Shown: in pieces, positions 4,577 through 28,626 of the stretch | How positions within the stretch are numbered: position 1 is the stretch's first letter | Layout of the letters: every line of letters begins with the position of its first letter | Source of the DNA: Hyphomicrobiales bacterium | Lineage (GTDB): Bacteria > Pseudomonadota > Alphaproteobacteria > Rhizobiales > Beijerinckiaceae | NCBI GenBank assembly: GCA_028290705.1 | Contig: JAQGJH010000035.1 | Span: forward strand, 1 to 46,928 | Length of the DNA stretch: 46,928 nt | Direction: 5' to 3' | The notes under the pieces: generated by a model | Told to the model about the DNA's origin: nothing | Seen by the model: the letters and a program-made list of their open reading frames with translations, nothing else | Database searches by the model: none | Translations under genes and position numbers: made by a program

Positions 4577-4644
4577 TTTTCCGGGGACGGCTTTCCCTGC
4601 CGCCTCACCATGCTAAGACAGCCCCGGCTGAAACGGGATCATCC

Positions 4645-5100
4645 ATGCCTTCGTTCAATACCTCGCGTCACGTCCACCACTCCGCGCCCAAAATGTTCGA
4701 CCTCGTGGCGGACGTTGAATCCTATCCGGAGTTCCTGCCTCTGTGCCGCGGCCTGCGGGTGCGGCGTCGTGTCGAAAGCGGCGAAGGGATTCAGGTGGTG
4801 GTCGCCGAGATGGAGGTTGGCTACAAGGCGATCCGAGAGACGTTCACGAGCCGCGTCACCCTCGACCGGCCACGCTTGAAGATCCTCGTCGAATATGTGG
4901 ACGGGCCGTTCAGTCACCTCGAGAACCGCTGGACGTTTCGCGATGCGGGGGACGGCACGTCGCATGTCGATTTCGCCATCAGCTACGAGTTCCGCTCGCG
5001 GACCCTCGGCTTGCTGATGGGCGCCATGTTCGACACGGCCTTCCGCAAGTTCGCCGAGGCCTTCGAGGCCCGTGCGGATCAGGTTTACGGGACGTCCTGA
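4645..5100 (+). CDS. ratA: RatA / coenzyme Q-binding Coq10-like START-domain protein
   Basis: A 151-residue single-domain SRPBCC/START protein. The N-terminal sequence SRHVHHSAPKMFDLVADVESYPEFLPLCRG is the hallmark of the Coq10/RatA family. Mitochondrial Coq10 binds ubiquinone and supports respiration. The E. coli homologue was described as a ribosome-association toxin, RatA. In alphaproteobacteria the quinone-related role is more likely; that is inference. It is the last gene of the left + strand group and converges on the binding-protein gene at 5104, with only three bases between the stop codons. Confidence 0.9.
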   Translation: MPSFNTSRHVHHSAPKMFDLVADVESYPEFLPLCRGLRVRRRVESGEGIQVVVAEMEVGYKAIRETFTSRVTLDRPRLKILVEYVDGPFSHLENRWTFRDAGDGTSHVDFAISYEFRSRTLGLLMGAMFDTAFRKFAEAFEARADQVYGTS

Positions 5101-5103
5101 GCC

Positions 5104-6144
5104 TCAGCGCGGCCTGAAGATTTCATTGAAGATCCGAACCCATTTCTTCTCGTCTTCGGCATCCAGCAGTTTGGTCACGACCTTTGCCTTCAGCACCGGC
5201 TCGAGAACTCCGGGCGGATTGGTGGTGACGTCCGAGCGCGTCGGCAAACGTCCGAATTTCGAGAGAAATTGTTGGGCCTCGCGGCTCAGGATGAAGTTCT
5301 GCGCGAGTTTCGCGGCATTGGGATGCGGGGCTTTGGCGTTGATGGCCGACTGGCCGAAGAAGAGCGTCACCGGTTCGACGACCCAATAGTCGGTCGGCGA
5401 ATTGGCCAGTTTCACGTTCATCGTCAGATTGAGGTAATTGTTCAGGGCGACGAGATATTCTCCACCGCCGACGGCGCGCGCGATGGCGAGATGGCCGTCG
5501 AGTACGACGGGCTTCAGCTTGGTGACGATCTCGCCCAGAATCTCGCGTGCGCGCTTCTCGCCATAATGGTCGAAGATTGCTGCAAGCCAGGGCGTATCGG
5601 TGTTGTCGATGACAACGCGGCCGGCCCATTCGGTGCGCTTGGCAAAATCTTCGAGCCGTGCGGGCAGGTCCTCCCGCTTCACGAACTTGGTGTTGTAGGC
5701 GGGGGTGTTGTAGTTGGCATAGACGCCGTACCAGCGCTTGCCGGGATCGCGGGCGCCTTCGATGAGGTTGCGGGCTTCTGCGGGCTCATGGGGCAGGAGA
5801 AAGTCCTGCGGAAATTTCTGCAGGTTCGCCGTCTGTGCGATGTCCCAGGCGCGCTGTCCGGCGCGCGCCTCGATGACCACGCGGCTGAGGATCTGGACGT
5901 CGGAGGCGCGGACGTAGAGCACCTTCAGCCCGGTGGCTTCCTCGAACATCTTCCACAATGGCAGGCCTTCCTGCTCATTGGTAGTCGAGTAGACGACAAC
6001 CGTGCCTTCCGGCTTCGCGGCGGCGAGGAGTTCGGGATCGAGCCAGGATGGCTTTTCCGCCTGTGCTGCTGCGGACCAGTTGCCGAACATCATGGCGCTG
6101 GCGAGCGCGCACATCGTCATGCGCCGCGAGATACGGATCTGCAT
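5104..6144 (-). CDS. ABC-type extracellular solute-binding protein (family 1, iron-type)
   Basis: A 346-residue periplasmic binding protein. The start at 6144 is set by GGAGG seven bases upstream; an in-frame extension further upstream lacks a ribosome site. The signal peptide has a basic N-region (MQIRISRRMTM), a hydrophobic core and cleavage near AAAQA. The mature part starts PEGTVVVYSTTNEQEG, typical of Fe3+/AfuA-like family-1 proteins (strand followed by a ligand loop). The ligand cannot be told from sequence. No ABC permease or ATPase gene is adjacent, so it is an orphan. The next gene upstream on the same strand is an MFS transporter. Confidence 0.85.
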   Translation of the reverse strand: MQIRISRRMTMCALASAMMFGNWSAAAQAEKPSWLDPELLAAAKPEGTVVVYSTTNEQEGLPLWKMFEEATGLKVLYVRASDVQILSRVVIEARAGQRAWDIAQTANLQKFPQDFLLPHEPAEARNLIEGARDPGKRWYGVYANYNTPAYNTKFVKREDLPARLEDFAKRTEWAGRVVIDNTDTPWLAAIFDHYGEKRAREILGEIVTKLKPVVLDGHLAIARAVGGGEYLVALNNYLNLTMNVKLANSPTDYWVVEPVTLFFGQSAINAKAPHPNAAKLAQNFILSREAQQFLSKFGRLPTRSDVTTNPPGVLEPVLKAKVVTKLLDAEDEKKWVRIFNEIFRPR

Positions 6145-6238
6145 GTCATCCTCCCTGATCTCACCCATGGCGGGTTGCGCCTCTTGCGGACGCATTCGAG
6201 ATTCGTAGTCGCGCGTCGAAGTCTTGTCCACACGCGGA

Positions 6239-7459
6239 TCAGGCCGGCAGGCGCGTCCGCAACTGGAAAGATGCCCAAAGGCCGCAGGCCGCGGCGGCGA
6301 AGATCACGATCGGCACTGCGGGCCAGCCGAACCCATGAACGACGAAACCGGCGGCGATCGGACCGACGAATTGTCCGACGTTGCTCGTCTGCTGGATCAG
6401 CCCGATGGTCGGCGTGACGAGTTCCGGCGCAACGATGCGTGGGACGGCGGCGAAGATCGATCCCGGTGCGAGCCCTGCTATTCCCAGCGCCAGCCCGGTC
6501 AGGATCGCGACCCAGCCGGCCGGAAGCCCCGCGGAATAGATCAGCGGCGCCGTCACTGCATAGGCCCCAAAGGCGATCGCCATGCTGGCCCAGAGGGGAA
6601 ACGACAGGCGCGAAAGAATGCCGGCCGCGATGTTGCCGATGGCGTTGGCGAAGACGCTGGCGGCGGTCAGCAAGCTGGCGCTGGCGATGGACAGGCCAAG
6701 CGCGCCGACGAGAATGACGGGCAGGAAGCCCGCCAGGATGAAGTACTGCACGGCGTAGACGCCGAAGACGAGCGCGAGCAGGCGGCTGTTGCGGTCCCCC
6801 AGCACGAGGCGCGCCACGCGAAGAAAATCACCCTGGCTGGACGCTGTGCTCTTCGTTGCCGCTGGGAGGATCATCATGGCAGCCAAGGCATAGAGCAGTG
6901 CGACCGCGGACTGAGAAAGCCAAAGGGCGCGCCACCCGAAAGTCGGCAAGACCGGTCCGAGCAGCAGCATCAGGGCGGTGCCGGTGGGCATGAAGCAGCC
7001 CCACATGCCGATGAACAGGAGGCGGTCTTTTCCGCGCACGACGGTGTTCAGCAGGTCGGGGATGACGACGACGACTCCGAGGAAACCAACTCCCTCGAGG
7101 ATGCGGGACGCGATGAGAAGGGCGGGTCCTTCGGCAGCTGCGCCCAAGAGGCTGCCGGCCGACATGACGATCATGCCGAGCACGAGCGAGCGCCGCGCAC
7201 CCATGCGCCGCGCCACCAGCCCGGTCCCCATTCCGAGCGTCGCACCGAGGGTCGCGAAGGTCGCGATGATCAGAGAAACGACGTCGATGCCGAGCGCCAT
7301 CTCGCTTTGAAGAAGCGGCATGGCCACGATGGCCTTGCCGAGTTGCGCCGAGGAAATGATGCCGCCGAGCAGCAGGAACAGCGCCAAGGGTCTGTGTCGG
7401 GATGGGCCGCTTGTCTCTTCCGGGGCCGGATGGATCCGGCCAGTGCTTGCGTCCTGCAT
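6239..7459 (-). CDS. Major facilitator superfamily transporter
   Basis: A 406-residue polytopic protein with about 12 hydrophobic segments. The ATG at 7459 has AGGA six bases upstream. The loop between segments 2 and 3 reads GLVARRMGARRSLVLG, the G-x-x-x-[DE]-[RK]-x-G-[RK]-[RK]-like signature A of MFS drug/metabolite transporters, here without the acidic residue. The substrate is unknown. It is transcribed in the same direction as the binding protein at 5104 with under 100 bp between them, but the two are not known to work together. Confidence 0.85.
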   Translation of the reverse strand: MQDASTGRIHPAPEETSGPSRHRPLALFLLLGGIISSAQLGKAIVAMPLLQSEMALGIDVVSLIIATFATLGATLGMGTGLVARRMGARRSLVLGMIVMSAGSLLGAAAEGPALLIASRILEGVGFLGVVVVIPDLLNTVVRGKDRLLFIGMWGCFMPTGTALMLLLGPVLPTFGWRALWLSQSAVALLYALAAMMILPAATKSTASSQGDFLRVARLVLGDRNSRLLALVFGVYAVQYFILAGFLPVILVGALGLSIASASLLTAASVFANAIGNIAAGILSRLSFPLWASMAIAFGAYAVTAPLIYSAGLPAGWVAILTGLALGIAGLAPGSIFAAVPRIVAPELVTPTIGLIQQTSNVGQFVGPIAAGFVVHGFGWPAVPIVIFAAAACGLWASFQLRTRLPA

Positions 7460-7540
7460 ATGTGGTCCTGCCGCCGCAGCTTCAGCGCCGCGCCAGCTCT
7501 TGGTAAACGCGAGATGCGCGGGACGCCAGCGTCGCGGCGT

Positions 7541-7615
7541 TCAGCGCAGGCCGAAGAAGCTCAGCACAGCCAGAACCACGACGACGAGACCGACGATATA
7601 GATAATGCCATTCAT
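7541..7615 (-). CDS. 24-residue single-pass membrane peptide
   Basis: A very small gene: the product begins MNGIIYIVGLVVVV and ends SFFGLR, essentially one transmembrane helix with a C-terminal arginine. Two ATGs are in frame, at 7621 and 7615. AAGGAG is one base before the first and seven before the second, so the second (7615) is the likely start. The strong ribosome site and the clean hydrophobic frame argue for real translation. I recall similar mini-proteins in Hyphomicrobiales genomes, but no function is known. It lies alone between the MFS gene and the glucan gene, on the same strand as both. Confidence 0.7.
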   Translation of the reverse strand: MNGIIYIVGLVVVVLAVLSFFGLR

Positions 7616-7696
7616 GTTCATACTCCTTGTAAGTTGCTGATGATCTCGAACGCCTAGACCGTGGCCGGGTTCCTGTAGAGTTGGGATCCTGCCGAG

Positions 7697-9307
7697 CTAG
7701 GTCGCGGCGCGTGTCCAGCGATGCAGCCAGGTCTCGCTGAAGGGGTGGTCGCCGCGCATGAGCCGCGCGGTGAATTCAGCGGTCACGCCAGGTTCGGCAC
7801 GCGCGATGAACATGGCCCGGATGCCCGGTCCATTGGGATTCCAGCGCAGGCGCGCGCCCGTCGCTTCGCCGCGGCTCGATTCGACCACCAGGTCGAACTG
7901 GTCGAGAGCCTTCTCCCAATAGTCGATGTCATGCGACGTGAAGTCGATGACGTACAGCCTTGATCCGCTGGGCGGTCCGCCATTGGCCCGCGCGAGGTCG
8001 CTGATCAGCGTTCGGCTTGCTGTGGCGAGTGCGTGAATTTCGGAGCCGTCCGTCATGGCCTCAATGCGATAGCGCCACGTCGTCGGCTTCAGTGGTTCGA
8101 GAGGCGACGCAGGCCGAAAGCATGCGACGATGTTGTCCTGAGTCTCGGTTGCGGTCGTGAGTTCGGAAAGCTGAACGGCTCCTGCGCTCCATTCGCCCTG
8201 CGGGACGACCCAGTAGGACGGGCGCAACTCGTAGGTGGCTTCGAGATCCTGGTATTGATCGAAATCTCGATTGCGCTGCAGGAGGCCGAAGCCCTTCGGC
8301 TGATCGACAGGATAAAGCGAGAGCTCGTTGTCGAGCGGGTTGCGGAGCGGCCTCCAGGTGAATTCATCGCCCGACCGCATCATCAGGCCGTCAGAATCAT
8401 GGACTTCCGCGCGGAACAGGTCGGCCTCACGGGGTCCGCTCGCCCCGGTGTAATACATCGACGTCAGAGGTGCGACGCCGGCAGTGGTCACGGTGCGCCG
8501 CGCCAGAACGGTCGCGGTGACATCAATCGCCGTGTGGACGCCGGGATGCACCGAAAAGGCGAAAGCGCCCGCAACGGAAGGACTGTCGAGCAGGCCCATG
8601 ACGTTGAGGTGGTTCTGATCTGCGGGGCCATCCTCGATCCAGAATTCGCGGAAGAAAGGAAACTCCTCCTCCTGCATCGGAACGCCCGCGTTGATTGCGA
8701 ACGCGCGCGCAGAGAGTCCGTAGCGCTGATCACGTCCGAGAAAGCGGAAGTAGCTCGCGCCCAGAAACACGATCAATTCGTCGAAAACATCCGGACGGTT
8801 GAGCGGTGTGCGGATGCGGAAACCGGCGAATCCCAAGGTATCGGGCTGCGGCGCCAGGACGAGATCGTCGAAGTCGAAGTCTTCGTGGCGGTAGGGAAGA
8901 GGTGTGGGCTCGCCATTCCGCAGAAGATTGATTCCGACACGACGCACGAAGAGGTTGCCGCGGTGGAAAAGATCGAGCTGGAACTTGCCACCCGTCAGAG
9001 ACTTGCGGGCCTCTTCCTTGAAGCGGATCTTGCGATAATCGTCATAGTCCAGAGCGGCCAGCTCGGGCCATTCCGCATCATGCGCGTCATCGAACGGCGT
9101 CTCGGCCAAGGCACGCGCCCGGTCGACCACGTCTTCGAAGCGAAAGTTACGGGTCGGCTTCTCACCGGCGGGTTGCGCGACGGCCGTCGTGTTCCAGCTT
9201 GAACCGGCAATGAGGCCAGCCCCTCCCCAGACGCTGGCGGCGCTGACGAGTTGCCGGCGCGACCACGTGCTCGTTGAATCGGTGATGTGTTTCGTCAGCT
9301 GACGCAA
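7697..9307 (-). CDS. Periplasmic glucan biosynthesis protein, MdoG/OpgD family
   Basis: A 536-residue protein of the OpgG/OpgD family, which acts in the periplasm on the backbone or branching of osmoregulated periplasmic glucans. Near the N-terminus SRRQLV (residues 16-21) followed by a hydrophobic stretch is a twin-arginine (Tat) signal, as in OpgD. The mature part has the family features FRFEDVVDRARALA and YRKIRFK, and ends with the expected Ig-like domain. The start is TTG at 9307 with GAGG upstream; no ATG is available before the signal. No glucosyltransferase OpgH is adjacent, which is unusual since opgGH are often paired. Confidence 0.88.
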   Translation of the reverse strand: MRQLTKHITDSTSTWSRRQLVSAASVWGGAGLIAGSSWNTTAVAQPAGEKPTRNFRFEDVVDRARALAETPFDDAHDAEWPELAALDYDDYRKIRFKEEARKSLTGGKFQLDLFHRGNLFVRRVGINLLRNGEPTPLPYRHEDFDFDDLVLAPQPDTLGFAGFRIRTPLNRPDVFDELIVFLGASYFRFLGRDQRYGLSARAFAINAGVPMQEEEFPFFREFWIEDGPADQNHLNVMGLLDSPSVAGAFAFSVHPGVHTAIDVTATVLARRTVTTAGVAPLTSMYYTGASGPREADLFRAEVHDSDGLMMRSGDEFTWRPLRNPLDNELSLYPVDQPKGFGLLQRNRDFDQYQDLEATYELRPSYWVVPQGEWSAGAVQLSELTTATETQDNIVACFRPASPLEPLKPTTWRYRIEAMTDGSEIHALATASRTLISDLARANGGPPSGSRLYVIDFTSHDIDYWEKALDQFDLVVESSRGEATGARLRWNPNGPGIRAMFIARAEPGVTAEFTARLMRGDHPFSETWLHRWTRAAT

Positions 9308-17437: not shown

Positions 17438-18469
17438 TCAGCGGTTCTTGAAAATTACGCTGCGCAGGTGGGACTTTTGTTCCGGCGTGATGCCGCTGAG
17501 CACCTTACGGGTGATTTCCAGCGCCTTTTCGGGGGACTGATACTCGATCATGCGCTGCGTCTTCGCGCCTTCAGCGATCAGATCCGGATTGGACAGGGCG
17601 CGTTTGACGGCGTCCCGCAGGAACGTCAGGCGATCTGCGGGAGTGCCCGGAGTCGTGATGAGGATGCGGCCGAGGTCGTTCAAATTGGCGCGGAAGTCGA
17701 GCCACCATTCCTGATCGGCCGTGAGCTTCGTCTGCTCGAAAATGGTCGGTACGTCGGGCAGCAGTGCGGAGCGCTCGCGACCCATGGAGGCGAGCGCCAC
17801 GGCCTGGCCAGCCTTGACGTAATTGGCTGCGGAACTGTCCGACAGATACAGGCCGTCCATTTCCCCGCGCTCCATCGCGAGAGCGATGTCGCCGCTGCTC
17901 TTGTAGCCGAGCACGATCTGGCATTCGAGTTTCAGCACTTCGCAGGTGACTGCCGCGCCATCGGCGGGGCCATCGCTCGGGCCCGTACCTCCCCAGCGGA
18001 TCTTGCGGCCGGGCAGGCGGGCGTCCGCCACCGTCTTCATGCCGGTGTGCTTGCCGACGAGCCACATCCAGGGATAGGCGCTGACGACTCCGAGGTGGTC
18101 AGCCTTGGTGAGGTCGTAGCGGATGTTGTCCTGCTCGAGCAATTGGCCCAGAGCCGCAGGCGTCCCGTTGACGATCAGCAGGCGCAGGCCGTCGGCCTGG
18201 CCCGCGAACATCTGGTTCAGGGCCAGCAGGCCACCCGCGCCCGGCTGGTTTTCGACGATCACGGTCGCGTCGAGTTCTTTCGACAGGTACGGAGCGATCA
18301 TGCGAGCATAGGCATCGAAGCCGCCGCCGACACCAAGCCCGACGACGAAACGAACTGTCTTGCCCTTGTAGAACGAAGCCGCGTCCTGCGCTCTGGCGGT
18401 CGCCGTCACGGCGAGGCCCATCAGCGCCGCGACCGAAAAGGCGCGCACCACACCCTTCAAACCCATCAT
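17438..18469 (-). CDS. TctC-family tripartite tricarboxylate transporter binding protein (copy 2)
   Basis: A 343-residue periplasmic binding protein. The ATG at 18469 has GGGAG eight bases upstream; a GTG at 18478 is also in frame. It has a Sec signal peptide with cleavage near ATARAQ, and the family start ASFYKGKTVRFVVGLGVGGGFDAYARM, then VENQPGAGGLLALN. It resembles copy 1 in both the N-terminal motif and the C-terminal layout (TPGTPADRLTFLRDAVKRAL versus PPETDAQRLAYLRDVTRKIL), so the two are paralogues. No membrane partners TctA/TctB are nearby. The ligand is unknown. Confidence 0.9.
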   Translation of the reverse strand: MMGLKGVVRAFSVAALMGLAVTATARAQDAASFYKGKTVRFVVGLGVGGGFDAYARMIAPYLSKELDATVIVENQPGAGGLLALNQMFAGQADGLRLLIVNGTPAALGQLLEQDNIRYDLTKADHLGVVSAYPWMWLVGKHTGMKTVADARLPGRKIRWGGTGPSDGPADGAAVTCEVLKLECQIVLGYKSSGDIALAMERGEMDGLYLSDSSAANYVKAGQAVALASMGRERSALLPDVPTIFEQTKLTADQEWWLDFRANLNDLGRILITTPGTPADRLTFLRDAVKRALSNPDLIAEGAKTQRMIEYQSPEKALEITRKVLSGITPEQKSHLRSVIFKNR

Positions 18470-18585
18470 GTCGTTCACTCCCGATGCGCTCTTTTCATCG
18501 TGAGGACGATGGGTCCGTCGTGGCGCATCCGACGGAGTGCGGCCAATCTACTTTTTCGACGCGGGAGCGGCAATGCCCCCACGCG

Positions 18586-19647
18586 TCAGTCAAAACCCCC
18601 GCGCGCGCGCTTCGGGTCCAGCACCTTGTCCTTGTTGAGACCTCGCTCCTGCTGAACCCTAGGGGACGAACCCGCCGGCGGCACCCCGAGCCGCATCCGC
18701 CACTCACGCCATTTCAACTTGGCGTCGGCCAGCTTATGGCCGGGCGCGGCACGATCGAAAGCGCGCCACTCACCGGGTTTGACTGTGCCTTTGGCGGCGA
18801 CGTGACGCATGACCGCGTCGCCCCACGAGTCGAAGCTGCTGACAAACGCATCTTCCTCGACGGCGTGTTCGGATTGATTGCGGCTGTAGGGCAGGCCGAC
18901 ACCCGTGGCGGCATGTGCCCAGAGCGTGTCAGGAACTTCGATGCCGCTGTAGCGACATTGCCAGACGAGTGGCGCATAGGTCTGTCGCATTTCCTCGAAG
19001 GGCTCTGCCGAAGGATCGAACCAGGCATTTCGATCCAGAATTTTCGGGCGGCCTTCCGCATCCATCTCGTCGGCGCCTCCGTCCGAGTAACAGAAGAAGG
19101 CGGCGGTGCGACCCTCGAGATGGTTCCGGCTCAAGCTGCGCCATTCCGGCGAGGCCTCGAGCGCCATCGCCATCTCGGGGTCCTTATGGTCGATGAGATC
19201 TTCACGCGGATTACCGCCGCTCATGCAGACGAGCCGGTCGAAGAACAGTTTCATGTTGCTGGTCGGCGCGTACCAGTTGACGGGCGCCACGAACATCCAG
19301 GCGTCTGCGAGATCCAGCCGGGCATAAAGATCGAGGTCCCACATCAGGTCCGGTTCGTCCTTGTTGGCCTTCTCGTAACAATTGCAGGGCCAGACGCAGA
19401 GCGACATCGCGGTCGAGACGCAGGCGTTACAGCTCTGGATGCGGGCTCGCCCGAAGACGTTGCCGAGATCCTCGAAGTCGATTTCCCAATCCTCTGGCAG
19501 GCGGTCGGCGAGGCGGAGAGAAAGCCAGCGAGCTTTCGAGTCGACGCCGGGACAATTGTACTGCCGCCGGTCCGAGCCTGCGACGATGAGGACACGCAAG
19601 GGACGCTGATCATGCGGCAGGCGGCCGTTGTCATCATTGGGTCGCAT
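18586..19647 (-). CDS. Flavodoxin-like / NADPH-dependent FMN reductase-type protein, cysteine rich
   Basis: A 353-residue protein with a flavodoxin-type fold. The start at 19647 has AAGGA upstream. The N-terminal strand RVLIVAGSDRRQ (about 19-30) gives the phosphate-binding loop, followed by FEDLG and APVNWYAPTSNMKLFFDRL (the flavin-contact region). A cysteine cluster, CNACVSTAMSLCVWPCNC (about 74-91), lies where iron-sulfur flavoproteins bind a [4Fe-4S] cluster, so it may carry one; this is inference. A C-terminal extension of about 150 residues is unusual for the family. Physiological partner and substrate are unknown. No redox gene is adjacent. Confidence 0.75.
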   Translation of the reverse strand: MRPNDDNGRLPHDQRPLRVLIVAGSDRRQYNCPGVDSKARWLSLRLADRLPEDWEIDFEDLGNVFGRARIQSCNACVSTAMSLCVWPCNCYEKANKDEPDLMWDLDLYARLDLADAWMFVAPVNWYAPTSNMKLFFDRLVCMSGGNPREDLIDHKDPEMAMALEASPEWRSLSRNHLEGRTAAFFCYSDGGADEMDAEGRPKILDRNAWFDPSAEPFEEMRQTYAPLVWQCRYSGIEVPDTLWAHAATGVGLPYSRNQSEHAVEEDAFVSSFDSWGDAVMRHVAAKGTVKPGEWRAFDRAAPGHKLADAKLKWREWRMRLGVPPAGSSPRVQQERGLNKDKVLDPKRARGGFD

Positions 19648-20111
19648 GATACGTTCCTTGTCGTGCCGGAGTGCCCGCAACCGGGTGTCACGCAAGGCGA
19701 AACGTGGAACGCGGGCGCGGCGTTCCGAGGCTTTGCCTACACGGTTTCGCGCGTAGAATTTCGCCGTCGATCGTGCTCCCTGCGCCGAAAGAGAGACATT
19801 GTTAAGCCTGCCGGATTACTTCTTGGACGTGAGCCTCAAGGAGTTGGCCGTGCTGATTTGGTGGGTACAGGGAACGGGTGTGCGTCACCCTTGTAACAGT
19901 CTCGAGGGTGCACTCTGGATGGTGTCTGCCGTCCGTGCGTGGGATCCCGATGCGTCGTTGTGTTGCGCCTATGCGGCGCTGGCTTCTGGCGAAGACGAAG
20001 CCACGTCGGACTGATCTATGGGAGCGTCGGAGGCTGCGCCTCGACCCTCCAAAAATAATCCGGGCGGCTCTTGTGCGCGGGAAGGGCTTTCCTTAAGTTC
20101 TTGAAATCGAT

Positions 20112-21069: not shown

Positions 21070-22410
21070 TCAGGCCAGACAGGCCTCGACACCCGCCGCG
21101 ATGGCGAAGAGATCGTTGTCGCGGTTCCCCGGGAGTGAGAGCATCAACCCGGAAGGCGCCTGCGGCGGGCGCGACATCGGAACCGATATCGAGCACCCGT
21201 CGAGCATGTTGATCACGGCGGGATTGCGCAGGATCAGCATGTTGAGCCGCGCAAAATCCGTGTCCGCGTCGAACGCGCTGATTGGCGGCGGCACAACCGG
21301 AACCGTCGGATAGGCGAGCACGTCATAGTCGCGCATGTGGTGCTCGAACTTTGCGATCAAGGCTGCGCGCGTGCGCATGAGATCGATGTAATCCGCAGCA
21401 GTTTGCTCATGACCACGCTCGATGCGCACGAGAACGCGTGAATCGTAGAGATCCGCATGGGCCTCGATCAACTTGCGATGGGTCGCAAGCGCTTCCGGCG
21501 CGGCAAAGCCGCCGCGCGCATTGGCTTTCGGAATGGCGTCGATTTCCGGGAAGGCTGCGTGTTCGATGATGGCTCCCGCTTCCGCCAGACGCTTCAAGGC
21601 AACTTCGAACGCGCGCGCGACGTCGGCGTCGAGATCTTCCATCACGTAGGAGTTGGGAACCGCGATCCGCAGGCCGCGGGCCGCACGCGCGATCAGTGGC
21701 TCATGCTGGCTTCGCGCCAGCACAGCGTCGACGGCGGAACAACAGGCGACGCTGCGACCGATCGGTCCGATCGAGTCGAGGGTCGTCGAAAGCGAGAATG
21801 CACCGGTGAGCGGGATGCGTCGGGCAGTAGGCTTGTAGCCGACGAGCCCGTTGAAGGCGGCGGGGATCCGGCACGAACCGCCGGTATCGGTGCCGAGCGA
21901 CACATGGGCCATGCCGTCTGTCAGGGCGATGGCTGCACCCGAGGAGGATCCGCCCGGAACCCGGTTCTTGTCACGCTGCCAACTACCGCGCGGCGTACCG
22001 AAATGCGGATTGATGCCGACGCCCGAAAAAGCAAATTCGGTCATGTTGGTGCGGCCGATGACGATGAAGCCGACCTGCCGCAGGCGCGTGACCGTGACGG
22101 CGTCCGAGGTCGCGGGCTCAGCCTCCTCGAGCACCTTTGATCCTGCGCGGGTGACTTCACCCTCAAGGTCGAAGAGATCCTTGATGGAGACCGGAATGCC
22201 CGCGTAGCGGCTTGGCGCCGCGCCTGCGCCTCGCAAGGCGTCCATGGCGCGCGCGGAGGCCCGCGCGCTTTCCCGATTTACGTTGAGGAACACGCGCTCG
22301 CCTTCGCCGCCGCTCTCATCGATGCGCGCGAGACAGGCGTCCACCAGCGCTTCGCTGGTGGTACGGCCTTCGGCCAGATCGGCCGCCAGTGCTTCGAGGG
22401 TCGGACCCAT
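21070..22410 (-). CDS. Amidase signature enzyme (amidase 1; last gene of the operon)
   Basis: A 446-residue amidase-signature hydrolase. The ATG at 22410 has GGAGG six bases upstream; an in-frame ATG at 22428 is less well placed. The catalytic Lys is in PVSIKDLFD, with the cis-Ser and nucleophile Ser in GGSSSGAAIAL and TDTGGSCRIPA. The family cleaves amides, including GatA, AtzE and carbamoyl hydrolases. The start and the Gly/Ser motifs are intact, so it should be active. The substrate is unknown. It is the distal gene of the predicted catabolic operon, 25 bases after the cupin stop, and probably acts on a nitrogen-containing intermediate. Confidence 0.88.
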   Translation of the reverse strand: MGPTLEALAADLAEGRTTSEALVDACLARIDESGGEGERVFLNVNRESARASARAMDALRGAGAAPSRYAGIPVSIKDLFDLEGEVTRAGSKVLEEAEPATSDAVTVTRLRQVGFIVIGRTNMTEFAFSGVGINPHFGTPRGSWQRDKNRVPGGSSSGAAIALTDGMAHVSLGTDTGGSCRIPAAFNGLVGYKPTARRIPLTGAFSLSTTLDSIGPIGRSVACCSAVDAVLARSQHEPLIARAARGLRIAVPNSYVMEDLDADVARAFEVALKRLAEAGAIIEHAAFPEIDAIPKANARGGFAAPEALATHRKLIEAHADLYDSRVLVRIERGHEQTAADYIDLMRTRAALIAKFEHHMRDYDVLAYPTVPVVPPPISAFDADTDFARLNMLILRNPAVINMLDGCSISVPMSRPPQAPSGLMLSLPGNRDNDLFAIAAGVEACLA

Positions 22411-22435
22411 GTTCACCTCCGCTGACATGCTACGC

Positions 22436-22816
22436 TCAGGCCGGGTCGAAATAGTGGATTTCGAGCAGCAGGCAGCCATTGTCGGAGCGGAACGGGCCGT
22501 GGAAGGCGCCGGGCGGACGACAGGCATAGGTGAACGGCTGGAACGATTCTCCGCCCTTGCCCTGTTCGTCGTTTCCGACCGTCAGGTCGCCGGTCACGAG
22601 GAATACCTCTTCCCAATATTCATGCACGAAGGGCTTGGTGGTGTACGTGCCGGGGATGAACTTCAGCAGTCGCGTGCGGCTGCCCTTGCGGTTCTCCTCG
22701 TCGAGTGCGCCGGACAGAATTTTCTGCTGGATGCCTGCCGGATAGCCGGCCGGCACTTCCCAGCCGGTGTTCATGTCGAGCGTATGAAATTCGTCGTGCA
22801 GCTTGTTGATCGCCAT
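22436..22816 (-). CDS. Cupin-domain protein
   Basis: A 126-residue single-domain cupin. The ATG at 22816 has GGAG eight bases upstream. A beta-rich core contains FVHEYWEEVFLVTGDLTV (about 62-79), with a His-xxxx-Glu-type first cupin motif and the following GD turn, and a second motif PPGAFHGPF with a His. These are the expected metal ligands, though the first motif is not perfectly canonical. Its partner enzymes are a UbiD decarboxylase upstream and an amidase downstream. It could be a ring-cleaving dioxygenase, an isomerase or a cofactor-binding protein; the sequence alone does not decide. Confidence 0.78.
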   Translation of the reverse strand: MAINKLHDEFHTLDMNTGWEVPAGYPAGIQQKILSGALDEENRKGSRTRLLKFIPGTYTTKPFVHEYWEEVFLVTGDLTVGNDEQGKGGESFQPFTYACRPPGAFHGPFRSDNGCLLLEIHYFDPA

Positions 22817-22851
22817 GATCGCGACTCCTGTGTTTCAAAACCTGACGTGGC

Positions 22852-24531
22852 TTACTTTTCGTCGGCCCTCGGCACCGGATCGTTCATCGCGACATCCGAG
22901 CGGCGGCCGCGAATGAGTTCGTCCGAGAATTCGAAATATTCGCTGCGGGACGCCATTTCCGCCTGTCGCGCAAGATTGTCCGGCCAGACGCCGAGATCGT
23001 AGCCGTGCCACGGCGTTTCCGGCTTCAGTTCAGGTAGTCCGAGCCGCTCCCAGATTTCCTTGGCTTTTTCCATGAACTCGCGCTTCGGCAGCGCGACTGG
23101 CGCGTAGTCGCCCTTCAGCAATGCGTTGATGAGAACGGACGCGCTCTCGCCATTGTCGCGCGGCCCACGGGGGCCGTGGCCGGCATCCTTGCGGTCGAGC
23201 ATCTTGAGATCATGCTGCGGCTGGCAGCGATAGGACATGGCCCAGAGCAGGGCGTCGGCGTTTTCCGGATCGATGTCCTCGTCGATCGCGATCACCCATT
23301 TGCCCGCGAAGCGATGCAGGGTCGATGCCGCATAGAGCGCGCGCCAGACCTCCGTCTCGAGCACGCCGCGCTCGAACACGATGGCGATCACCGCGTAGAG
23401 GCTCGTCAAAGGCTCGTGCATCGAGACACGCTTGACGCCCTTGATGCCCAGCGCATTGCGCAGATGGTTGAGATAGACGGGCTCCATCGCGGCCTTGCGG
23501 ATGACGCTCGACTCGCTCGGCGTCACCTGGCTGATGAAGGACGGAATGATGGTGTTCTTGCGCCGCGTGATCGCAGTCACGTCCATGAAGGCGTTGTATT
23601 CCTGCAGATTGACGTAGCCATGCGACTCGCCGAAGGGCGCTTCCGGCTCGAGGAACTGCGTGTCGATGAAGCCTTCGATGACGATCTCGGCCTGGGCCGG
23701 CACCATCAGATCCACCGTCCTGGCCTTGACGACGTCGATGGGAGCGCCCGCAAGTCCGCCCGCGACGGCCATTTCGTCGATTCCTTCGGCGAGCTTCTGC
23801 ACGGACGTGTAGGAGACGGCCGGCGGGCAGCCGAGCACGACGGCGCAGGGCATGGGCTTGCCCATCTTCTTGTATTTCAGCCAATGCGCGTAAATGCCGG
23901 CGCGCAGTTCGACCGAGGGATTCATGCCGAGACGACGCGGCGATTTGAGCTGACCGCGATAGTTTCCGATGTTCTGGACGCCGGTGTCGGGGTCCTTGGT
24001 GATGTAATGGCCGGCCGACAAATAGGGTGCGTTGTCCCAGCCGGGAGTCGAGATCGGCACCGGAATGCCGTCGAGCGCGGCGCCATCGGCATCGAGGGCG
24101 TCGCCCTCCGTGACGATCTCCTGACAGGACGCGTTTTCGACGACGCGCGGTTCGATGGGGTTGGCGATGGCGTTGATCCAGGTCTCGCCGATCTTCTCCA
24201 GCGGCTTTCCGAAGCCGGTGCGATAGACGTCGGGAGTTGCCGCGAGACCGGCCACGAGCACCGCGGTATCGTATTTCCGGCCCTTGCTGTCGGTGGGGTT
24301 CGTGAAAAGAAACGCCTTGCGATCGCGTTCCGCAATGCCGCCGCGATATTGCCAGCGCACCAGCGGATGCATTTCCGTGTCCTTGTTGATCGGCTCGTCG
24401 ACGACGATCAGAAGGCCTCGGCGCGCCAGCTCCAGCACGTGCGCGTGAAGGTCGGGGTAGGCGGTCCTTGCGCCGGCTTCATCGACGAAGCGCCCGAGAG
24501 AAGCCGGCAAGGGATGAACCTGGTCCTGCAT
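22852..24531 (-). CDS. UbiD-family decarboxylase
   Basis: A 559-residue protein of the UbiD/FDC family, which (de)carboxylates aromatic or unsaturated acids using prenylated FMN. The prFMN contact region is NIGNYRGQLKSP (Arg192). The catalytic acid pair is EAPFGE (Glu297 and Glu302), matching the Glu277/Glu282 arrangement of Fdc1. DIDPENADALLWAM is the C-terminal metal/flavin-site loop of the family. Length fits. No UbiX-type prenyltransferase gene is in the window, so prFMN must come from elsewhere. The start is preceded by AAAGG and an A8 tract (minus-strand copy of 24531-24538). The ribosome site overlaps the stop region of the upstream amidase gene, so the two are likely coupled. Confidence 0.9.
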   Translation of the reverse strand: MQDQVHPLPASLGRFVDEAGARTAYPDLHAHVLELARRGLLIVVDEPINKDTEMHPLVRWQYRGGIAERDRKAFLFTNPTDSKGRKYDTAVLVAGLAATPDVYRTGFGKPLEKIGETWINAIANPIEPRVVENASCQEIVTEGDALDADGAALDGIPVPISTPGWDNAPYLSAGHYITKDPDTGVQNIGNYRGQLKSPRRLGMNPSVELRAGIYAHWLKYKKMGKPMPCAVVLGCPPAVSYTSVQKLAEGIDEMAVAGGLAGAPIDVVKARTVDLMVPAQAEIVIEGFIDTQFLEPEAPFGESHGYVNLQEYNAFMDVTAITRRKNTIIPSFISQVTPSESSVIRKAAMEPVYLNHLRNALGIKGVKRVSMHEPLTSLYAVIAIVFERGVLETEVWRALYAASTLHRFAGKWVIAIDEDIDPENADALLWAMSYRCQPQHDLKMLDRKDAGHGPRGPRDNGESASVLINALLKGDYAPVALPKREFMEKAKEIWERLGLPELKPETPWHGYDLGVWPDNLARQAEMASRSEYFEFSDELIRGRRSDVAMNDPVPRADEK

Positions 24532-24543
24532 TTTTTTTGGCCT

Positions 24544-25902
24544 TTACGCGACGTTCTGGTTGGCGGGAGCGATGATTTCGACGATGGCTGCCGAGAGAGC
24601 AAAGAGCGCGGCGTCCTCGTCGCGATAGCCCATGACCTGGACACCGAGCGGCAATTGACCGACGCGCAGCAGCGGCAGGGACAGGGCCGGAACTCCGAGC
24701 AGTGAAGACGGCACGGCGAAGACCGGATTGCCGGTCGCCTCGATGCCGACCGGAGCGGCATCCGGCGCCGAGAGCGTGATGCAGGCGTCTGCAACTTCCG
24801 TGATCCGCGCATGAATGGCGCGAATTTCGTCGCGACGCGCGATGTCACGGCGGTAATCCTCGACGTTCATGGCCTCGGCTTCGCGCAGGCGGTCGATCAT
24901 GCCCTGGCTCAGCTTTGAGGCGTCGCGGTCGACGTAAGTGTTGAGCGGCCAGCGCGACTCCCACGCGTTGATGCGGCGGGTCAGCGGCAGCACTTCGGGC
25001 ATCAGGTTTTCGAGCGCCGCAACGGCCGTGTCGTCGTGACGCGTGACGATCTTGATGCCTGCGGCCCGAAGATCGTCGAGCACGCGCGACATCGCGTCCC
25101 GTGCGGCCGGTGCGGCGACGTCCCATCCCTCGGTTTCGAGAAAGGCCAGGGACGCAGGTATTTTCGAGTCGGGCATGACGGGCGGGCCGATGATGCCCGG
25201 CATGCCTGGGTCGCCGCTGGCGCGCACCACGATTTCGCGCGCAATCTGCCACGTGTCTTCGAGCGTCGCGGCGAGAACGCCCTGGCAGCTCTGGCTCATG
25301 TAGTCGTGGCTGCCACCGCGATTGATGCCGCCCAGCGAGGGCTTGTAGCCGACGCAGCCGCAATAGCTGGCAGGCCGCAGGATCGAGCCGACGACCTGTG
25401 TGCCCAGTGCGCCCGCGAGCATGCCCGATCCGACGGCTGCTGCGGATCCGCTGCTGGAGCCGCCTGGCGTGCGCGTGAGATCGTGCGGATTGCGCGTCGG
25501 TCCCGGACGGGTGGCGGCGAATTCGGTCGTCACAGTCTTGGCGACGATGATGGCTCCGGCTTCACGGAGTGCGTGCACCGACGCTGAATCGTGACCCGGG
25601 CTATAGCCGTCGAACAATGGCGAGCCCATGCCGGTCGGCATGTCGGCCGTCTCGATCACGTCCTTGATGCCGATCGGCATTCCATCGATGGGCGACAAGG
25701 GCGCGCCTTCATGCCAGCGCTGCGTCGAAGCGTCTGCGGCGGCGCGTGCGGCGTCGAGATCGATCGCCGTGAAGGCTTTCACCTCCGGGTCGCGCGCCTC
25801 GATCTCGTCGATGCAGCGTTCGAGAAAGTCGCGCGGCGTGTCCTTGCCCGAGGCGAAGTCGCCGAGAGCGCGCGCAAAGGATCGCGGGTGAGGGCGGTTC
25901 AT
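24544..25902 (-). CDS. Amidase signature enzyme (amidase 2)
   Basis: A 452-residue amidase-signature protein. The catalytic Lys is in PIGIKDVIE, the Ser-rich motif is GGSSSGSAAAVGSG, and the nucleophile region is GTQVVGSILRPASYCG. The latter departs from the usual TDTGGSIRIPA, but the Gly-Ser pair is kept. It is a distant paralogue of the amidase at 21070; both sit in the same operon. Its start ATG (25900-25902) overlaps the stop of the FAD monooxygenase gene by four bases. The substrate is unknown, presumably an amide of the pathway intermediate. Confidence 0.88.
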   Translation of the reverse strand: MNRPHPRSFARALGDFASGKDTPRDFLERCIDEIEARDPEVKAFTAIDLDAARAAADASTQRWHEGAPLSPIDGMPIGIKDVIETADMPTGMGSPLFDGYSPGHDSASVHALREAGAIIVAKTVTTEFAATRPGPTRNPHDLTRTPGGSSSGSAAAVGSGMLAGALGTQVVGSILRPASYCGCVGYKPSLGGINRGGSHDYMSQSCQGVLAATLEDTWQIAREIVVRASGDPGMPGIIGPPVMPDSKIPASLAFLETEGWDVAAPAARDAMSRVLDDLRAAGIKIVTRHDDTAVAALENLMPEVLPLTRRINAWESRWPLNTYVDRDASKLSQGMIDRLREAEAMNVEDYRRDIARRDEIRAIHARITEVADACITLSAPDAAPVGIEATGNPVFAVPSSLLGVPALSLPLLRVGQLPLGVQVMGYRDEDAALFALSAAIVEIIAPANQNVA

Positions 25903-27128
25903 GCCGCGGCCTCTTCCAGTGTGATCGAAGCGGCGCGCGACTGCATGGAGAGCATCGAACTGCGCAGCAGATATTGCCGCGCCTTGACGGGATCGGCTGC
26001 GGTCTGCGCCAGTTCGGCCAAGGTCGCCTTCCGGGCCACCGGCTCCTTCGTCTCGAGCTGCTTCTTGTTGGCGATGGACTGCGCCTGGACGAACTCGATC
26101 GAGACTGTGCGACGTTGCAGCGAGTAGAGATCGAGCAGACTGTCGGGCGCGCCGGCCAAGACCTGCACGAGCTTTTCGGACAGGTTGGCAGCGTCCTGAA
26201 GGCCGCCGTTCAGACCCATGCCGCCGATGGAATTATTGACGTGCGCCGAGTCTCCCGCGAGCATCACGCGGCCCTTCCGGAAGGTGGCGGCGACGCGCTG
26301 GTGCGTGGTGTAGAGATTGCGGTGAACGATGTCGTAGGGCTGCGATCCCGGAAAGAATTTCTGCAATCGCGCCTGCACCGCTTCGTCGCTCATGATCTCG
26401 GCTTCGCTGGCGTTCGGGTCCGTCGGGAACACCGTGCGCCAGAGGCCCGGAGGTCCGTCGGCCGCCACCTTGAAGCAATTGCACCATTCGTCCGGATCGG
26501 CGAAATAGCTGCGGTAGCAGTAGCCGAGATGGGCGTTGAAGTCGAAGGGCGTGGTCAGCACCAGGAAGCGTTCGGCCCAGGTAAATCCCTCGAACGGGAT
26601 GCCGGCCTGCTTGCGCACGGTGCTGCGGCCGCCGTCGGCGCCGATGAGATAGGAGCCCGTGTGCTTCTGTTCGCCGCTCTTGGTGCGGACCGTCACCGTC
26701 ACCTCGTGGTCGGTCTGATCGACGGCCACGACCTCGTGCCCGAACATGATCTCGACGTTGGGCATGTCGACGAGGCGCTTCATGATGATGTGGGCGGTCT
26801 TGAATTGCTCGCACTGGATGACGAACGGATATTTCGTGTCGTTGGCCAGGAGTGCGAGATCAAATTCCGCCACGAGTTGTCCGGACGGGCGATCCCAGAA
26901 CTGGAAGATCGGCGCGGTCAGGCCCTGCTGCGCCATGTCCTCGACGAGACCGGCCAGGCCCAGAACTTCGAGCGTCGCGGGATGCGTGGTGGCGGCGCGG
27001 GGATCGTCCTGCAGTTCGTCGTTGATGTCGAAAAGGCGCACGGGAACGCCCTGGCGGCCCAGCAGGAGGGCGCAGAACAGGCCCACGGGGCCGCCGCCGG
27101 AGATCAACACTCGCTGGTTGGTCTTCAT
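25899..27128 (-). CDS. FAD-dependent monooxygenase (UbiH/PHBH-type hydroxylase)
   Basis: A 409-residue flavoprotein hydroxylase. The second of two in-frame ATGs (27128, with GAGAGG nine bases upstream) is chosen over 27137. FAD is bound by LISGGGPVGL (about 8-17), the NAD(P)H/FAD DG motif is IGADGGRST, and the GD motif is LAGDSAHVNNSIGGMGLNGG. The closest matches in memory are 3-(3-hydroxyphenyl)propionate- and pentachlorophenol-type hydroxylases. It would add oxygen to an aromatic ring. It is followed by the amidase with a four-base overlap and preceded by the GntR gene, so it is inside the catabolic operon. Confidence 0.9.
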   Translation of the reverse strand: MKTNQRVLISGGGPVGLFCALLLGRQGVPVRLFDINDELQDDPRAATTHPATLEVLGLAGLVEDMAQQGLTAPIFQFWDRPSGQLVAEFDLALLANDTKYPFVIQCEQFKTAHIIMKRLVDMPNVEIMFGHEVVAVDQTDHEVTVTVRTKSGEQKHTGSYLIGADGGRSTVRKQAGIPFEGFTWAERFLVLTTPFDFNAHLGYCYRSYFADPDEWCNCFKVAADGPPGLWRTVFPTDPNASEAEIMSDEAVQARLQKFFPGSQPYDIVHRNLYTTHQRVAATFRKGRVMLAGDSAHVNNSIGGMGLNGGLQDAANLSEKLVQVLAGAPDSLLDLYSLQRRTVSIEFVQAQSIANKKQLETKEPVARKATLAELAQTAADPVKARQYLLRSSMLSMQSRAASITLEEAAA

Positions 27129-27170
27129 GGTCTTCATCCTCTCAAAACGGCGGCGCATCGGCGCGCGGAA

Positions 27171-27899
27171 TTACATGTTGTGCGTCAGGTTCTCGCGGAA
27201 AGCTTCGATATGGGCGCGCATCGCCTGTTCGGCGCCGTCCGGATCACGCGCCCGGATCGCCGACAGAATGGCTTCGTGTTGCGCCTGCACGCTTTCGTGG
27301 TGACCCGCCTTGTTCAGCGAGATGAACCAGAAGCGCAGCGAGCGGTCGTGCAGCTTGGCGAGCCAGTCCCCCAGAACTGCGTTCTTGGACGCGCGTGCGA
27401 GGACCCAGTGAAACTCGCGGTCGAGCTTCATCAACTGCTCGCTGTTGCGGGCCTCGATCCATTGCGCGGCGCGGGCGAGGATGTCGCTGAGGTGAGCGAT
27501 CTCGTCGGCGTCGGCACGGTCCGCCGCGAGGCGAACGCAATAGCCTTCGTTCAGGAGCCGCACCTCGACGATCTGCATGATCTCGTCGAGGCTGACGGGC
27601 TTCACGATCACTCCCTTGCGGGGAATGACGTCCAACATACCTTCCAGCATCAGCCGATCGATCGCCTGATGTACCGGCGTGCGGCCGATCCCGAGGGTGG
27701 CCGAGACGAAGGCTTCGTTGATGTATTCGCCCGGCTTGAACGCGCAGGTGATGATGCGGTGCTTGATCGCCTCATAGGCGGCATCGCGCAGCGATTGCGG
27801 CTCCGGCATCGAGATCACGCGCGCCGAGTAGCCACTGGAACCAGGCTCCTGTGGCGTCGTCACGCGATGAGTCTGACGCAAGGCCGCTTCGTCTGTCAC
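27171..27899 (-). CDS. GntR-family transcriptional regulator (FCD/FadR subfamily)
   Basis: A 242-residue regulator. An N-terminal winged helix-turn-helix (about 36-100, SLRDAAYEAIKHRIITCAFKPGEYINEAFVSATLGIGRTPVHQAIDRLMLEGML) is followed by an all-helical FCD effector domain (about 105-235, MQIVEVRLLNEGYCVRLAA, LDREFHWVLA). The conserved metal-binding Asp and His are present (LDREFH, QAQHEAI, MRAHIEAF). The start is GTG at 27899, in a GTGA overlap with the DUF2848 gene. It is the second gene of the operon and probably controls it in response to a pathway acid. A perfect palindrome at 28613-28626 is a candidate operator. Confidence 0.92.
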   Translation of the reverse strand: MTDEAALRQTHRVTTPQEPGSSGYSARVISMPEPQSLRDAAYEAIKHRIITCAFKPGEYINEAFVSATLGIGRTPVHQAIDRLMLEGMLDVIPRKGVIVKPVSLDEIMQIVEVRLLNEGYCVRLAADRADADEIAHLSDILARAAQWIEARNSEQLMKLDREFHWVLARASKNAVLGDWLAKLHDRSLRFWFISLNKAGHHESVQAQHEAILSAIRARDPDGAEQAMRAHIEAFRENLTHNM

Positions 27900-28594
27900 C
27901 CGAGCACCGGAAGCTTTTCGAGCTCGTAGCCATGCCGGATGGTGCGGCCGAGAACCGGGTCTTCCATCTCGAACTCGAAAACATCCGCCGGGCGAATGCC
28001 GCCCTTAGCGGCAAACGTTCCGCACAGCATGATCGTGCCGGTTTCCAGCGACTTTTTGCCGTCGTAGCCTTCGATCAGAACGGCTGGGTCGAGCATCGCG
28101 TTGACGGCGCCCTCCTGGTAAAGCACGCGCGCGCCGTTCTCGAAAATGAAGGAGCGGAGGATGATCTTGTCCCAGTGGCCGGCGACGTCCGCGAAACGCC
28201 AGACCTCGGGCGCCATCGGCTTTTCGCACATCTGCTTGGAGACCGTGACGTTGTAGGTCTCGACCTGGCGATCGGTATGGTCCGAGCCGACGCCCACCCA
28301 CAGGTCACCGTTCCATTGCGCCATGATGAATTCGACTTCACCGCTCGAGGCCGTGCCGGTCGTCTGGACTTTCGTGTCGGTCGTCACTCGGGCGGCCGAG
28401 ACGCGATAATAGACGGGAGTGGAGGCGGGGCGTGCCACACCCAGTTCTTCCAGTTCCTTGATGTGTTTCTCGAGCGCGACACGGTCGCGGCCGGTCCAGC
28501 CTGCCACCACGCATTGTTGCACCTGCACGTCGTGCATTTCGGTGCGGCCGTCAGAGACGCTCCCGGTGTGGAACTTGATCTGCATGATCGACAT
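27896..28594 (-). CDS. DUF2848-family protein (fumarylacetoacetase-like fold), first gene of the catabolic operon
   Basis: A 232-residue protein I recognise as DUF2848. Hallmarks are AGWTGRDRVALEKHI, PVYYRVSAARV, GEVEFI and WVGVGSDHTDR (about 100-110), then TYNVTVSKQMC and DKIILRS. DUF2848 proteins are related to fumarylacetoacetate hydrolases, which cleave acylpyruvates or act as isomerases or decarboxylases on them. The exact activity is not known. Its start is at 28594, with a second in-frame ATG at 28585. It is the first gene, so it is the most upstream protein of the operon. The stop overlaps the GntR gene by four bases. Confidence 0.85.
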   Translation of the reverse strand: MSIMQIKFHTGSVSDGRTEMHDVQVQQCVVAGWTGRDRVALEKHIKELEELGVARPASTPVYYRVSAARVTTDTKVQTTGTASSGEVEFIMAQWNGDLWVGVGSDHTDRQVETYNVTVSKQMCEKPMAPEVWRFADVAGHWDKIILRSFIFENGARVLYQEGAVNAMLDPAVLIEGYDGKKSLETGTIMLCGTFAAKGGIRPADVFEFEMEDPVLGRTIRHGYELEKLPVLG

Positions 28595-28612
28595 GACCCC
28601 CGCTCTGCAACT

Positions 28613-28626
28613 TGTGAAATTTCACA
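28613..28626. promoter_or_regulatory. Perfect 14-bp palindrome, candidate operator of the catabolic operon
   Basis: TGTGAAATTTCACA reads the same on both strands. It lies 19-32 bases upstream of the DUF2848 start at 28594. A TATATT (minus strand, 28634-28629) is a plausible -10 box, which would place the palindrome at and just after the transcription start. It therefore suits a repressor. FCD-type GntR regulators bind short palindromes, so the GntR protein of the operon is the likely ligand (inference). Note that TGTGA-N4-TCACA is also similar in half-sites to Crp/Fnr-type boxes, although the spacing differs from Crp. Confidence 0.65.

Follow-up and report, generated by a model that had tools for sequence, protein, structure and literature searches.

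Candidate aromatic catabolic operon of a Beijerinckiaceae bacterium with a portable cupin and DUF2848 gene pair

Several described pathways resemble in part the seven-gene operon analysed here, which lies on the minus strand of a 46,928-nucleotide stretch (the window; contig JAQGJH010000035.1, assembly GCA_028290705.1) of a Hyphomicrobiales bacterium of the Beijerinckiaceae. The operon encodes a DUF2848 protein, a GntR/FCD regulator, a single-component flavin adenine dinucleotide (FAD) aromatic hydroxylase (FMO), an amidase-signature hydrolase (AmdA), a UbiD-family decarboxylase, a small cupin and a second amidase-signature hydrolase (AmdB). The 4-hydroxyphenylacetate pathways (HpaBC-HpaD-HpaG) share with this gene set an enzyme of the fumarylacetoacetate-hydrolase (FAH) fold, as predicted below, and with 32 loci collected by their cupin a two-component hydroxylase of the same Pfam families (oxygenase in 23) and a MarR-type regulator (in 19). 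However, the HpaB-type protein scores 328.6 against an equivalog cut-off of 480.2, no HpaD-type gene is annotated in the plasmid loci of Caballeronia, Thioclava and Roseateles, and the window operon has no HpaBC. The nicotine pyrrolidine/nicotinate maleamate pathway (HspB, NicX, NicD, NicF, NicE) is resembled in the relatedness of the FMO to HspB and in a plausible amide hydrolysis step; Pfam detected no NicF- or NicE-type family (isochorismatase, Asp/Glu racemase), NicX or other ring-cleavage oxygenase among the seven operon proteins, to which this search was confined, and neither a cupin nor DUF2848 is known to belong to it. Among solved structures PnpA lies nearest the FMO (profile score 305 bits), and UbiD, amidases and DUF2848 are not known as neighbours in the p-nitrophenol operon. 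The lum system for riboflavin/lumichrome catabolism in Nocardioides also has amidases, a FAH protein and a cupin acting past ring cleavage, but it is driven by a P450, a xanthine oxidase and Rieske and extradiol dioxygenases, and UbiD is not named (0 occurrences) in the accessible portion of that article (PMC12746152). In Fusarium verticillioides, the cluster FVEG_03387-03405 holds one gene each of FAH, FAD-binding, cupin and UbiD type, and 2-benzoxazolinone raised all of them according to the accessible part of the report; this cluster is fungal, other genes intervene, many of them unresponsive, and it is likened to the operon by gene families and not by homology (PMC10512309). By analogy, it may serve as a lead toward a phenolic or aminophenolic amide substrate, and it also counts in favour of the catabolic operon proposed below.

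The sequence-only reading of the window had recognised no known pathway in this combination, and among the matches listed in the open-access literature we likewise found no bacterial operon of this make-up. DUF2848 did not occur as a word in the main text of the open-access papers searched. While each enzyme class has been described before, their combination seems to be undescribed, as do the portable pair of cupin and DUF2848 and the assignment of DUF2848 to the FAH enzymes, although structure databases may already hold this last assignment.

To keep the choice of loci independent of the hydroxylase, 397 genomes from the window's order were searched with the cupin only, which gave 52 hits in 45 genomes; the 32 strongest (E 3.7e-54 or better) were analysed and the 20 weaker ones left out. 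DUF2848 was found in 28 of these loci. Of the other genes, 23 loci have an HpaB-type oxygenase, 20 its reductase, 19 MarR, 17 AmdB and 14 GntR; as in the FMO-anchored counts below, matches under the identity thresholds are left out and absences on short contigs (L218, L231, L236, L239) are weak. A PnpA/HspB-like hydroxylase was present in two of the 32, the window and L240, both hydroxylase types never occurred together, and UbiD and AmdA were found in the window only. Since DUF2848 is present in just 83 of the 397 genomes, mostly in single copy, its adjacency to the cupin is very unlikely to be due to chance. The cupin and DUF2848 are a portable pair. On plasmids, an HpaB-type gene adjoins the cupin, by coordinates, in 9 of 13 cupin records. 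Gene content was read for five of the 13: the plasmids of Caballeronia sp. NK8, Thioclava and Roseateles carry the HpaB-type gene and a reductase, an amidase, DUF2848 and a branched-chain-type ATP-binding cassette (ABC) transporter, in somewhat varying orders and strands. Bradyrhizobium sp. 187 has the row FMO-DUF2848-cupin (FMO 43% identical), and two Variovorax records (45%) are also among the plasmid records with the cupin.

The reverse sample was anchored on the FMO. An alignment-based hydroxylase scan of named genomes yielded 114 confirmed relatives and retained 80; with L021-L023 added and the duplicate L091 removed, this gave 82 distinct loci, the window left out. L091, the same contig as L021, was also dropped from the co-occurrence and cupin-clustering counts and was counted in the neighbour-gene clusters and gene rows. 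By tblastn, whose counts are lower bounds on these often short contigs, the cupin was matched in 41 loci, DUF2848 in 39, both in 34, GntR in 28 and AmdB in 20, and an HpaB-type oxygenase (at least 40% identity) in one and its reductase in none. All seven operon genes were matched in 6 of the 82. The cupin and DUF2848, often with AmdB, are the more constant part of the gene set. Among the carriers of such genes is an isolate, Rhizobium sp. P32RR-XVIII (L097). Clustering placed both hydroxylase types at 3 of 60 cupin loci (L110, L115, L125); only L110 has an HpaB-type match of at least 40% (40%), and none of the three has the reductase. A single clean swap of hydroxylases was considered and not adopted, given these both-type loci and a hydroxylase label that needs four changes on the DUF2848 tree and five on the cupin tree; the starred branches of these quick trees force just 1-3 changes.

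The complete operon was sought in other genomes and found, with the same seven genes in the same order, in a sister metagenome-assembled genome (MAG) of the Beijerinckiaceae, L067, at 83-95% protein identity (FMO 94%); the two stretches are collinear over some 15 kb, with 81% DNA identity. The ratio of nonsynonymous to synonymous substitution rates between the window and L067 is 0.055-0.117 across the seven genes; all of them are under purifying selection, and the gene set is real, beyond chance. The first description of the genes stands as to their order, which L067 conserves; the seven are not an indivisible unit, UbiD, AmdA and the hydroxylase being optional. L072, one of the six loci matching all seven genes, has a mere 65-residue UbiD match (4889-5083) between AmdA and the next gene, and UbiD looks decayed there.

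The DUF2848 protein (PF11010, 282 bits; 232 residues; 27896..28594, minus strand) was modelled by AlphaFold from 34 sequences with a mean predicted local distance difference test score (pLDDT) of 93.9 and a predicted template modelling score of 0.90. All 13 Foldseek matches in the PDB with E<=0.001 belong to the FAH superfamily (best E 3.0e-11; query TM-score 0.49-0.65). The matched chains come from Cg1458, 2-keto-3-deoxy-D-arabinonate dehydratase, yeast ynq8 and HpcG; the Foldseek output gives this family name for ynq8 alone of the four, and Cg1458, 2q1a and HpcG are presumed to be members. A sequence profile search of the PDB lends weak support, with five sub-threshold matches, four of them FAH proteins. 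All 34 sequences share residues E86, E88, D105, D108, K120 and Q160, and the spacing from E86-x-E88 to D105/D108 is shorter than what we take to be that of the FAH metal site. From the model, DUF2848 is confidently predicted to adopt the FAH fold. Enzymes of the FAH fold act on keto acids, by hydrolysis, decarboxylation or hydration, a chemistry that fits a late DUF2848 step on a ring-opened acid; the hydrolase or decarboxylase role first given to the protein can thus be kept as that of a likely hydrolase, decarboxylase or hydratase.

We tentatively propose a catabolic operon in which an exchangeable upper part (amidase, UbiD, hydroxylase) feeds a conserved lower part (cupin, DUF2848, amidase). 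The gene set probably serves to degrade an acid or amide of ring shape, and the domains bear out the first reading of a probable catabolic operon that combines a hydroxylase and a UbiD-type decarboxylase with two amidase-signature proteins. In the upper part, AmdA would free the acid from its amide, the UbiD enzyme would decarboxylate a hydroxylated (hetero)aromatic acid with prenylated flavin mononucleotide (prFMN), and the FAD hydroxylase would add a substituent to the ring or replace one, yielding a dihydroxy ring. In the lower part, the cupin might open the ring as an Fe(II)-type dioxygenase, AmdB might hydrolyse the resulting amide, and DUF2848, as a FAH-type metal enzyme, might hydrolyse or decarboxylate the ring-opened acid to central metabolites, the operon presumably being controlled by the GntR/FCD regulator (242 residues; 27171..27899, minus strand; PF00392 and PF07729). 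We infer every reaction, the order of the steps and the substrate against a background of observed gene content, order, conservation and domains, the predicted DUF2848 fold and the cupin-DUF2848 pairing. The favoured substrate would be a hydroxylated N-containing aromatic, for example a pyridine carboxylic acid or the corresponding amide. The N-heteroaromatic substrate suggested at first is possible, as is a phenolic or aminophenolic amide. It is quite possible, if short of probable, that at least three upper pathways share an undescribed lower pathway for ring-derived compounds, in which a small cupin, its metal motif unusual, works with the FAH-fold family DUF2848. The three would be hydroxylation of the HpaBC type, hydroxylation of the PnpA/HspB-like type (prFMN decarboxylation being optional) and, in Vibrio, an aminotransferase. 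If this is true, DUF2848 gains a first function. The predicted fold, the cupin partner and the interchangeable hydroxylases make DUF2848 a testable lower-pathway enzyme, and the findings point to an aromatic nutrient that several proteobacterial lineages would use.

A number of findings weigh against this proposal. AmdB was not found in 15 of the 32 cupin loci, some on short contigs, so the amide may not be central, and UbiD and AmdA were matched in only 26 and 32 of the 82 FMO loci. On the Vibrio maritimus plasmid (L244, 2838-6354) the gene row is a major facilitator superfamily transporter, a class I/II aminotransferase, DUF2848 and the cupin, adjoined by insertion sequence elements, and no hydroxylase is annotated in this 12-kb stretch. 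The Rhizobium sp. ACO-34A plasmid (L245), added to the plasmid records separately and picked by HpaB, carries an HpaB-type oxygenase (55%), a reductase and a 39% amidase match and has no cupin or DUF2848. The best of the five DUF2848 profile matches is an alpha-amylase (E 0.03). As for the cupin (126 residues; 22436..22816, minus strand; single-domain, Cupin_7 at 25.7 bits, just below the 27-bit cut-off), it is small, and all 32 sequences have F at position 63, where the usual HxH has its first His. The HxH...E...H motif of gentisate/homogentisate-type ring-cleavage cupins is thus not found, H65, E69 and H106 remaining of it; all 32 share H65, E69, E70, H106, E119 and H121. The cupin LumY of riboflavin catabolism, for its part, acts on ring-opened acids according to the accessible text (PMC12746152).

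In an alternative that we regard as somewhat unlikely, the cupin is no oxygenase. Hydroxylation would give a lactam-like product, whose ring an amidase would open by hydrolysis, unless the FAD enzyme itself opens it; the open chain would then be handled by the cupin as hydratase/isomerase and by DUF2848 as hydrolase. In favour of this, the cluster of LumY, the cupin acting on ring-opened acids, also has a FAH protein of unassigned function, LumV, as the accessible portion states (PMC12746152), and the operon itself has two amidases. The cupin model (pLDDT 93.1) is nearest in fold to TM1459, and its neighbours include KdgF, RemF and DddK beside acetylacetone dioxygenase (3bal, rank 30); with neighbours so mixed, the fold alone cannot decide between oxygenase and hydratase/isomerase. 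A variant locus with the FMO, AA_synth and an amidohydrolase has neither DUF2848 nor cupin, which also fits this alternative. However, the 15 of 32 cupin loci that have no AmdB match would need another ring opener.

The FMO (419 residues; 25899..27158, minus strand; PF01494, 206 bits) has the FAD hydroxylase motifs GxGxxG, DG and GD as invariant G21-G26, G173-D175 and G302-D303 (alignment A1), and its nearest solved structures are PnpA (262 bits), which we take to be p-nitrophenol monooxygenase, and HspB (184 bits; 227 with a profile), by name a hydroxypyridine monooxygenase. The UbiD protein (559 residues; 22852..24531, minus strand) contains PF01977 (177.5 bits) and PF20696 (45.7, cut-off 24.2), with PF20695 just under its cut-off (23.1 against 24.3). 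R192, E282 and E286, presumably the catalytic set, are invariant in four aligned sequences and match the same residues in 6h6x. AmdA (452 residues; 24544..25902, minus strand), with a GGSSSG motif, and AmdB (21070..22410, minus strand) match Amidase PF01425 at 226 and 253 bits, which by sequence places both in the amidase-signature family; AmdB belongs to the PRK07056 subfamily (NF005460 at 641.8 bits, cut-off 447).

With these enzymes the substrate could also be benzenoid, a phenolic or aminophenolic amide from which the amidases strip a side-chain or N-acyl group before a gentisate/homogentisate-like sequence. We consider this unlikely. Gentisate-type pathways run from hydroxylase to cupin to FAH enzyme, and both hydroxylase types have phenol-acting relatives, presumably PnpA for one and, by name, 4-hydroxyphenylacetate and chlorophenol monooxygenases for the other. 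On the other side, HspB, the second-nearest relative of the FMO, acts by its name on a pyridine, and the ABC transporter found in relatives of the operon has an NMT1-type binding protein, a type which we assume to serve heteroaromatic solutes. The rise of the fungal FAH, FAD-binding, cupin and UbiD genes on 2-benzoxazolinone, as given in the accessible part of the report, speaks for the benzenoid substrate (PMC10512309).

A five-membered N-heterocycle such as pyrrole-2-carboxylate, decarboxylated by UbiD or acted on directly by the hydroxylase, is quite improbable. UbiD is nearest to 6h6x/6h6v, which we take to be the furandicarboxylate enzyme HmfF, PA0254 is among its matches, and a two-component pyrrole-2-carboxylate monooxygenase is known; however, the similarity is low (135 and 101 bits, respectively, over the 559-residue query), and among the pyrrole-2-carboxylate literature matches listed no title concerns such an operon. 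Finally, a biosynthetic or detoxifying cluster in place of a growth pathway is very improbable: the same enzyme classes presumably appear in biosynthesis, but Pfam finds no assembly-line, ligase or transfer domain in the seven proteins, relatives hold ABC-type uptake genes, and the operon has a GntR/FCD regulator.

Returning to the catabolic operon with its upper and lower parts, two gaps had been noted at first, and their reading as features of the pathway was rejected. The first was the missing transporter. In L138 and L077 the genes run FMO-AmdA-UbiD, an NMT1-type binding protein, an ATPase, a permease, a second NMT1-type protein and cupin-AmdB. The extra block of L138 spans 4412-8133, about 3.7 kb, at the place where UbiD and the cupin of the window are 35 bases apart; the window operon is the gene row of its relatives minus the ABC-transporter block, which they hold inside the same row. 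The NMT1/THI5-type protein between permease and cupin (L073-L078, L138 and others) has its conserved motif starting at most 15 residues from the start in 25 of 37 cases. By sequence, it seems to have no signal peptide and may work in the cytosol as an enzyme instead of binding a solute; its gene was not found in the window operon. The second gap was UbiX. The window genome, a MAG that is 73.9% complete, has no PF02441 gene (UbiX or CoaBC), and because CoaBC, which shares this domain, is absent too, the gap fits the incompleteness of the MAG and is uninformative. PF02441 genes are present in 8 of 8 related genomes, and 7 of the 8 have two (open frames of 197-327 and 418-463 residues), as have all five congeners, UbiX- and CoaBC-sized, these names resting on size. 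The eighth genome (G203) has the long PF02441 gene only, and its FMO locus showed no UbiD.

The layout agrees largely with what had been read from the letters. The seven genes stand on the minus strand in the order and with the domains first given, from 28594 to 21070, and all seven open reading frames are uninterrupted; DUF2848 has its first start codon at 28594 rather than 28626. Stop and start codons overlap by four bases between DUF2848 and GntR (27896-27899) and between FMO and AmdA (25899-25902), and the remaining gaps do measure 12-42 bases: 12 between GntR and FMO from the first ATG, or 42 if the FMO starts at the ATG at 27128, 12 between AmdA and UbiD, and the above 35 between UbiD and cupin. 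The mechanical reading frame of AmdB begins at 22527, within the cupin gene. The true start is probably at 22410, 25 bases past the cupin stop, because GGAGG lies just 5' of this ATG and the best family match begins only at residue 38 of the mechanical frame. A scan of the region for terminator-like sites gave 6, against 5.8 in shuffles, with one on the operon strand, inside UbiD, and no hint of a break.

Some observations concern loci and genes at the margin of this operon. The hydroxylase variant with AA_synth (PF06684) and an amidohydrolase, often with DUF4286 and an aldehyde dehydrogenase, occurs in L057 (Mariluticola), L147 (Agrobacterium vitis pAt), L118, L119, L121, L130 and L023; its amidohydrolase was found in 0 of 30 FMO loci with DUF2848 versus 8 of 35 without, loci under 11 kb having been dropped from this co-occurrence test (65 of 83 kept). 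An Asp/Glu-racemase-family gene lies near the hydroxylase in L080, L084, L087, L099, L122-L124 and L144, often with a second hydroxylase and in some with an isochorismatase-family gene. Its identification as a maleate isomerase was rejected, since the L080 protein, the one member tested, aligns without the cysteines of 2xed, 2xec and 4fq5 that we presume to be catalytic. The neighbours of the Rhizobium sp. ACO-34A plasmid locus are annotated as pyridoxal 4-dehydrogenase and polysaccharide deacetylase. The window genome (G000; contigs C67, C139, C146, C94, C107) encodes two more UbiDs of the same clade, at 60% and 49% identity, and another three hydroxylases, at 41-47%, of which one has two in-frame TGA codons. 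Downstream of the operon, on the minus strand at 17438-19695, are genes for a TctC-type binding protein and an FMN_red-family protein, which stand beside the operon in L067 as well (90% and 84% identity).

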